Source: Lysobacterales bacterium
GTDB taxonomy: Bacteria > Pseudomonadota > Gammaproteobacteria > Xanthomonadales > Ahniellaceae
NCBI GenBank assembly: GCA_017997455.1
Contig: JAGOEZ010000003.1
Location: 1 to 34,088, forward strand
Direction of reading: 5' to 3'
Length of the DNA stretch: 34,088 nt
Of this stretch, positions 20,353-24,415 are shown in pieces (within the stretch, counting starts at the first letter, position 1; the number at the start of each line of letters is the position of its first letter). The position numbers and the translations under genes were made by a program. The notes beneath the pieces were generated by a model. That model saw only the letters and a list, made by a program, of their open reading frames with translations. It ran no database searches and was not told the DNA's origin.

Positions 20353-20384
20353 CAAAAAAAACCCTCGCCGAATCCGGCGAGGGT
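20353..20384 (-). terminator. Strong rho-independent terminator upstream of pgi
   Basis: A perfect 10-bp stem ACCCTCGCCG / CGGCGAGGGT (20361-20384) with a 4-base loop is followed on the minus strand by an eight-base T run (complement of 20354-20361). It ends a minus-strand transcript that comes either from the panC operon, about 190 bases upstream, or from a separate small RNA. Confidence 0.88.
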
Positions 20385-20577
20385 AGAATCGGAGTGACGA
20401 TTACCTAAAAGAATGCGCCCTGCTGCCGTTGGGGATCGCTGTGCAGCGGTCAACCCACCGGTGTGTGAACACTATCACGGTGTAGTGCGAAAAGCTACAT
20501 CTGTTGCGTAGCGGACTACATTTGGCGAAAAGTGTTGCTTTTCGGCACTACTCGCCCGAGGCCCGCAAGCGTTTTCC
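20385..20577 (-). ncRNA. Possible small RNA or structured 3' UTR between panC and pgi
   Basis: The 193 bases between the panC stop and a strong terminator carry no credible open frame. They are more A+T-rich than the flanks and contain several small hairpins on the minus strand: a CGAAAAG/CTTTTCG stem (about 20526-20544), GTGA/TCAC (about 20465-20478), CGCT/AGCG (about 20438-20449) and AATCG/CGATT (about 20387-20402) directly before the terminator. I do not recognise an RNA family, and no convincing promoter was found. It may be a free small RNA, an RNA cut from the panC 3' UTR, or just a long UTR. Confidence 0.3.
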
Positions 20578-24339: not shown

Positions 24340-24415
24340 GCTCCCTTCGTCTAGTGGTCTAGGACACCGCCCTCTCAAGGCGGGAACACGAGTTCGAACC
24401 TCGTAGGGAGCGCCA
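24340..24415 (+). tRNA. tRNA-Glu (anticodon CTC)
   Basis: A 76-base cloverleaf with encoded CCA. The acceptor stem GCTCCCT pairs with AGGGAGC (24405-24411). The anticodon stem CCGCC/GGCGG encloses the loop CTCTCAA, so the anticodon is CTC and reads GAG. The T arm has GTTCGAA. The sequence CTTCGTCTAGTGGTCTAGGACACC is typical of bacterial tRNA-Glu, described here by its key positions 24346-24368. This is the isoacceptor for G-ending codons, in line with the high G+C; the TTC isoacceptor must lie elsewhere. Confidence 0.97.

Follow-up and report, generated by a model that had tools for sequence, protein, structure and literature searches.

The window (the whole 34,088-nt stretch of Lysobacterales DNA that was analyzed) carries panC and pgi on its minus strand, and the gap between them holds only small overlapping ORFs in the window's ORF list, none of them a credible gene. 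The features of the locus, all on the minus strand and given from panC to pgi, are:

21495-20578, minus strand: panC (name confirmed by NCBIfam).
20492..20497, minus strand: predicted -35 element, TAGCTT, 17 nt before the -10 (position computed).
20469..20474, minus strand: predicted -10 element, TAGTGT; homologs have an extended -10, TGTGGTATNNT.
20354..20463, minus strand: predicted small RNA of ~110 nt, its start near 20462 placed from the -10.
20426..20461, minus strand: 5' hairpin P1, from folding z and compensatory changes within two subgroups of relatives.
20415..20422, minus strand: block A, CAGGGCGC; AGGGCGC is present in 29 of 29 blastn-found loci.
20391..20404, minus strand: block B, GUAAUCGUCACUCC (= GTAATCGTCACTCC), with the proposed pairing segment, TCACTCC, as its 3' part.
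20361..20384, minus strand: intrinsic terminator stem-loop, with compensatory changes in 9 of 11 pairs across 39 homologs.
20354..20361, minus strand: the terminator's U run of eight T, whose first T closes the stem.
Start ~20205, end 18629, minus strand: pgi (name confirmed by NCBIfam).

The original prediction described a stretch without a credible gene, on the panC strand and following panC, more A+T-rich than its surroundings and ending in the strongest rho-independent terminator of the window; this description holds. The gap (20385-20577) has a G+C content of 54.4%, where the window as a whole has 71.1%, panC 72.9% and pgi 74.8%, and only 0.12% of 193-nt segments taken in 10-nt steps across the window are equally low. 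The 225 nt of the region fold to -81.8 kcal/mol (z -3.1; as good in 2 of 200 shuffles). The terminator is built of 10 pairs, 8 of them G-C, a loop of 4 nt and eight T. Among the 12 terminator-like sites listed by two scans of the window none has more G-C pairs, and one other site equals it in total pairs, the highest number reached; the element possesses an intrinsic terminator of its own, one of the marks by which an sRNA is judged. The scans find about as many sites as in shuffled sequence (6 versus 5.9 and 6 versus 5.3), so that a single site on its own proves little. (A second good terminator-like site, with 8 pairs, 7 of them G-C, and seven T, lies at 28981-28963 on the minus strand.) The small hairpin that was said to share bases with the terminator stem also exists, but the competition between the two folds is not conserved: the perfect AAUCG/CGAUU stem recurs in only 24 of 63 homologs, and a competing hairpin or attenuator is rejected as a conserved feature.

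Conservation extends well beyond the terminator, with P1, the two blocks and the promoter-like sequence kept across families. In a blastn search of the window's genome and 150 relatives (151 in all) the 3' part of the query (bases ~141-225) is conserved in several families. All of the 29 best relevant loci (L009-L037; L038 is a chance match) have AGGGCGC, a short variable linker, UCACUC followed by C or U, and a terminator with a U run; TCACTCC is intact in 28, and L033 has TCACTCT. These loci are the fairer sample for block conservation: the alignment of 39 homologs has 23 invariant columns, with invariance of the blocks partly a matter of construction, since loci from the pattern scan and regular expressions had to contain parts of them. 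Families f7 and f9 carry the variant CAGGGCGCGAA..GGUACAUCACUCC, ACATCACTCC is found in 14 of 63 homologs, and GCGGTGCGC replaces GCAGGGCGC at one locus (L191). Mean unpaired probability is 0.58 for UCACUCC and 0.44 for AGGGCGC of block A, compared with 0.39 for the whole RNA. A helix between blocks A and B was considered and set aside: 6 of its 8 pairs never vary, so that covariation cannot judge it, and inspection by eye finds it broken in the f7/f9 variant.

Hairpin P1 is conserved as a structure. Over 63 homologs the 46 nt before the core have a mean folding z of -2.5 (-0.16 for upstream control stretches), with z below -1 in 54 and below -2 in 38 (12 and 3 for the controls); the window's own copy is modest, at z -1.35. 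P1 is too variable for MAFFT in the whole alignment (A1), in which RNAalifold returns only 6 invariant pairs, and its pairs were therefore counted within subgroups. Changes on both sides affect 8 of 10 pairs in subgroup A3 (14 sequences) and 7 of 8 in A4 (19 sequences); subgroups A5 and A6 were aligned but lie outside this count. For paired cells and covariation score, none of 500 shuffles equals the real alignment in either A3 or A4, but for the number of A4 pairs changed on both sides 74 of 500 do. The conserved structure looked for in an sRNA is thus found, in the folding of P1 and in the paired changes of P1 and terminator. The linker and P1 vary freely in length among homologs, which speaks against coding.

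A promoter-like sequence keeps a steady position ahead of P1 among homologs. In 56 homologs a -10 resembling TGTGGTATNNT precedes block A by 38-60 nt, with GTGGTA exact at the site in 46 of 61 (five f1 members were reassigned by eye after misplacement by the script, and the site of L169 is doubtful), and TTGCTT, TAGCTT or TTGGCA-like hexamers, read by eye, stand ~17 nt above it at the place of the -35. In the window itself the -10 matches weakly, and a generic sigma-70 scan of the window detects no promoter at the element. The RNA predicted from these sites is 100-128 nt long (median 110) in 60 homologs, a set from which L031, L152 and L169 are excluded. Its predicted 5' end at ~20462 falls inside the interval 20400-20577 in which the original prediction had placed a possible RNA start. 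In several homologs (e.g. L116 and L199) an inverted repeat, GTGGTA-N4-TACCAC or similar, encloses the -10 and start site; it may be an operator or a mere effect of the extended -10. GCAACA/TGTTGC repeats surround the -35 in f1 relatives (L010, L012, L015, L020; the corresponding region of the window is 20475-20577), and are possibly a regulator site.

The neighbors of the element change, and this bears on what it can be. Within ~1.5 kb on each side (some stretches are cut by contig ends) panC is found at 27 of the 29 blastn loci and pgi at 23. At L071, HrpB is upstream on the other strand and PanD and then pgi are downstream; at L032 and L205, PcnB is upstream and pgi downstream; at L010, MurB lies downstream on the opposite strand. 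(These names are from NCBIfam; PcnB is below the curated cut-off because the ORFs are cut.) Since the element stays in place where other genes stand instead of panC, pgi or both, neither a plain 3' UTR of the one nor a plain leader of the other accounts for it, and its own promoter-like sequence and terminator in the midst of changing neighbors make it most simply a gene. A cis-acting role as leader or attenuator of the gene that follows (pgi or panD) would accord with the element's position upstream of pgi at 23 of 29 loci and with its terminal terminator, but pgi is not found in the excised stretch at the other 6 (some of these being short), the next gene at L010 is murB on the opposite strand, and the competing hairpin is not conserved; we regard it as improbable. 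Still less probable is a panC 3' UTR or an RNase E fragment of one. The element does lie behind panC on the same strand at 27 of 29 loci, but the promoter-like sequence is conserved directly before P1, and the gene is kept behind PcnB (L032, L205) and beside HrpB (L071), with panC not found within those stretches. An untranscribed DNA element, a binding or recombination site, might be expressed in two short frozen blocks, but would hardly call for a strand-specific terminator and a hairpin with compensatory changes, and the window's genome has one full copy, its other matches being chance matches of 14-30 bases; this account deserves very little credence. Of the three options offered in the original prediction, the independent small RNA accordingly fits best, and the RNase E product and the plain long UTR are disfavored, on the basis of conservation beyond the terminator, compensatory changes, the conserved promoter-like sequence and persistence without an adjacent panC.

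As judged by sequence, the gene is kept in many families of Lysobacterales. A pattern scan of named genomes gives at least 117 loci, many of which lie in unrelated phyla and match by chance; its carriers include Dokdonella immobilis and other Dokdonella, Tahibacter soli, Chiayiivirga flava, a Rudaea MAG and many Lysobacterales MAGs. When the order was searched with a covariance model built on core and terminator (R1), 262 of 398 genomes matched at E 0.01 or better, many of the weak matches being terminators alone, and 116 at 35 bits or more (look-alikes in G120 and G149 included; part of the matches was read). Strong matches occur in families f1, f3, f4, f5, f6, f7, f9, f10 and f11, in genera g17, g26, g34 and g54 of f12 and in genera g48, g72 and g97 of f2; among the 398 genomes none is seen in f8 or in most of f2 and f12. 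Of 369 genomes of the class, one from another order (G404) has the only real copy outside Lysobacterales, flanked by panC and pgi. Terminator look-alikes account, on reading, for the matches in G120, G149 and G330 and the second match in G212 (the weak matches were read only in part), and for weak matches in two genomes of other orders (G417, G638) and two Patescibacteria (G859, G1011). A check for absence covered 21 selected genomes, most of them lacking a strong match; 20 yielded PanC. In the 19 with sequence behind panC (that of G008 ends there) the two blocks do not occur together at that place, where panD, pgi or another gene follows; one of the 19 is Stenotrophomonas maltophilia NEC1 (L337), and f2 appears to hold Stenotrophomonas-like genomes. 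IMG/VR gave no exact pattern match to a virus-borne copy.

One copy stands apart. On contig JALHNF010000024.1, labelled Candidatus Paceibacterota, L152:3246-3377 (minus strand) has 35 nt identical to the core of L037 and L071, and scores 49 bits with the covariance model. Its hairpin and terminator differ from those of the Lysobacterales loci, its upstream sequence is no more similar to that of L037 and L071 than shuffled sequence is, and it lies directly upstream of a gene for an AI-2E-family-like transporter. The contig also encodes glycine- and methionine-tRNA ligases, and the impression is that transporter and ligases are of Patescibacteria type. In 379 genomes of that phylum there are two other matches at E 1e-5, both look-alikes. 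Accessions and isolate names suggest that L071 and L108 (the named contig of L037) come from the same study. One might imagine an ancient Lysobacterales RNA whose frozen core touches one essential, slowly changing partner, in place of mRNAs that shift over time, and Patescibacteria of the same habitat that took up this core; the odds are heavily against so elaborate a history. If it were true, the core might act there as a mimic of the RNA made by a Lysobacterales neighbor or host, or weaken that RNA's effect.

The reading that we favor, at a probability of roughly 0.7, is a free-standing sRNA gene of ~110 nt whose product, assisted by Hfq, would pair through UCACUCC over GGAGUGA ribosome-binding sites. 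Its footing in the genomes themselves consists of conservation, compensatory changes in P1 and terminator, the promoter-like sequence, independence of the neighbors and an hfq gene; we infer transcription, Hfq binding, pairing and any target. A promoter within the panC-pgi gap would start the RNA, which would fold into the 5' hairpin, a linker bearing CAGGGCGC and UCACUCC, and the intrinsic terminator with its U tail. Hfq, which is encoded in the window's genome (E 2.6e-29), as an Hfq-dependent sRNA demands, would occupy the U-rich linker and tail, and UCACUCC, complementary to the Shine-Dalgarno core GGAGUGA, would pair over ribosome-binding sites of that type and so repress the mRNAs.

In the window's genome bamA (BamA by NCBIfam) has an exact complement to 11 bases of the core over its ribosome-binding site and start. 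Exact 11-base complements at bamA starts are seen at L221 and L218 (G000 and G002) and in two f3 genomes (L254, L255). Among the genomes read, GGAGTGA precedes bamA in 8 of 9 from f1 and 2 of 3 from f3, but in none of 9 from f11 (8 of them carriers), none of 30 from f4, f5, f6, f7, f9 and f10 (28 carriers at 35 bits or more) and none of 30 from f8 (7), f2 (14) and f12 (9); a script picked the bamA starts, some of which are uncertain. Further f2 and f12 genomes that were read have no unbroken GGAGTGA before bamA, and a related site, GGA..GACG-ATG or GGA..GTGA, occurs there in several f2/f12 genomes lacking the RNA. With GGAGTGA limited to f1 and f3 among the families read, bamA is rejected as a conserved target, and is at most a lineage-specific one. 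A target scan of 1894 start regions in G013 finds no enrichment (1619 versus 1612 +/- 61 for 40 shuffled cores). The best region of G013 is the start of an hda-like gene (L464:17557, minus strand; Hda is the NCBIfam name, slightly under the curated cut-off), with a predicted pairing of -35.3 kcal/mol that employs blocks B and A together at a site overlapping the end of the preceding gene.

Pairing with mRNA is thus a best guess, and its main rival, which we hold to be unlikely though less so than any alternative to a trans-acting RNA, is that the RNA is real but uses its two nearly invariant blocks to bind a protein or ribonucleoprotein and does not pair with mRNA. In its favor, both blocks are almost frozen in surroundings that all vary, and the target searches gave no mRNA pairing that is conserved or enriched; on the other hand, UCACUCC is complementary to a Shine-Dalgarno core, the linker around it is fairly open, and no protein partner is known.

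Searches of Rfam, with the window and with a permissive search of the region, reach no family at gathering score at the element (the sole match at that level in the window is a tRNA gene at 24340-24412, plus strand), and 16 homologous loci have only sub-threshold matches on it. The best of these, NsiR1 (RF02399; 25.4 bits in the window, gathering score 39), ncS54 (RF02871) and anti-hemB (RF02837), follow the terminator part; none covers P1, and they do not recur in most of the 16 loci. The sRNA sX13 of Xanthomonas has an Rfam entry; no sequence relation between it and the RNA described here was found. According to PMC3771888, sX13 is exclusive to Xanthomonadaceae and Hfq-independent, has three stems with C-rich loops, and through its C-rich segments represses mRNAs that carry G-rich motifs close to the start of translation. 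On that description it is an sRNA of the same order, with the same kind of mechanism as proposed here, but the present RNA would have one 5' hairpin, linker and terminator in place of three stems, carries its C-bearing segment in the linker, and is missing from most of f2. The same paper portrays modular Hfq-dependent sRNAs of enterobacteria as comprising a single-stranded targeting segment, a U-rich stretch and a rho-independent terminator with a U tail (PMC3771888). The predicted RNA appears to share all of these, but its conserved segment is internal, behind the 5' hairpin, rather than 5'-terminal as in that portrayal, and Hfq binding is a proposal. No mention of this RNA was found in the literature; supplements and most subscription journals lay outside the scope of that search and may hold an unlisted one. 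A term search of the main text of PMC7694677 gave no panC, panD or pgi.

What lies between panC and pgi looks like a small RNA gene that is conserved in Lysobacterales and uncatalogued in Rfam. It has perhaps been overlooked: the published small-RNA maps found for the order are of Xanthomonas, and the gene is absent from most of f2 and from the S. maltophilia genome that was tested. The homolog set and covariance model could seed an Rfam entry and, together with the predicted 5' end, can be put to the test in cultured Dokdonella immobilis, Tahibacter soli and Chiayiivirga flava. A core that is nearly frozen across so many families must do something that selection holds on to.
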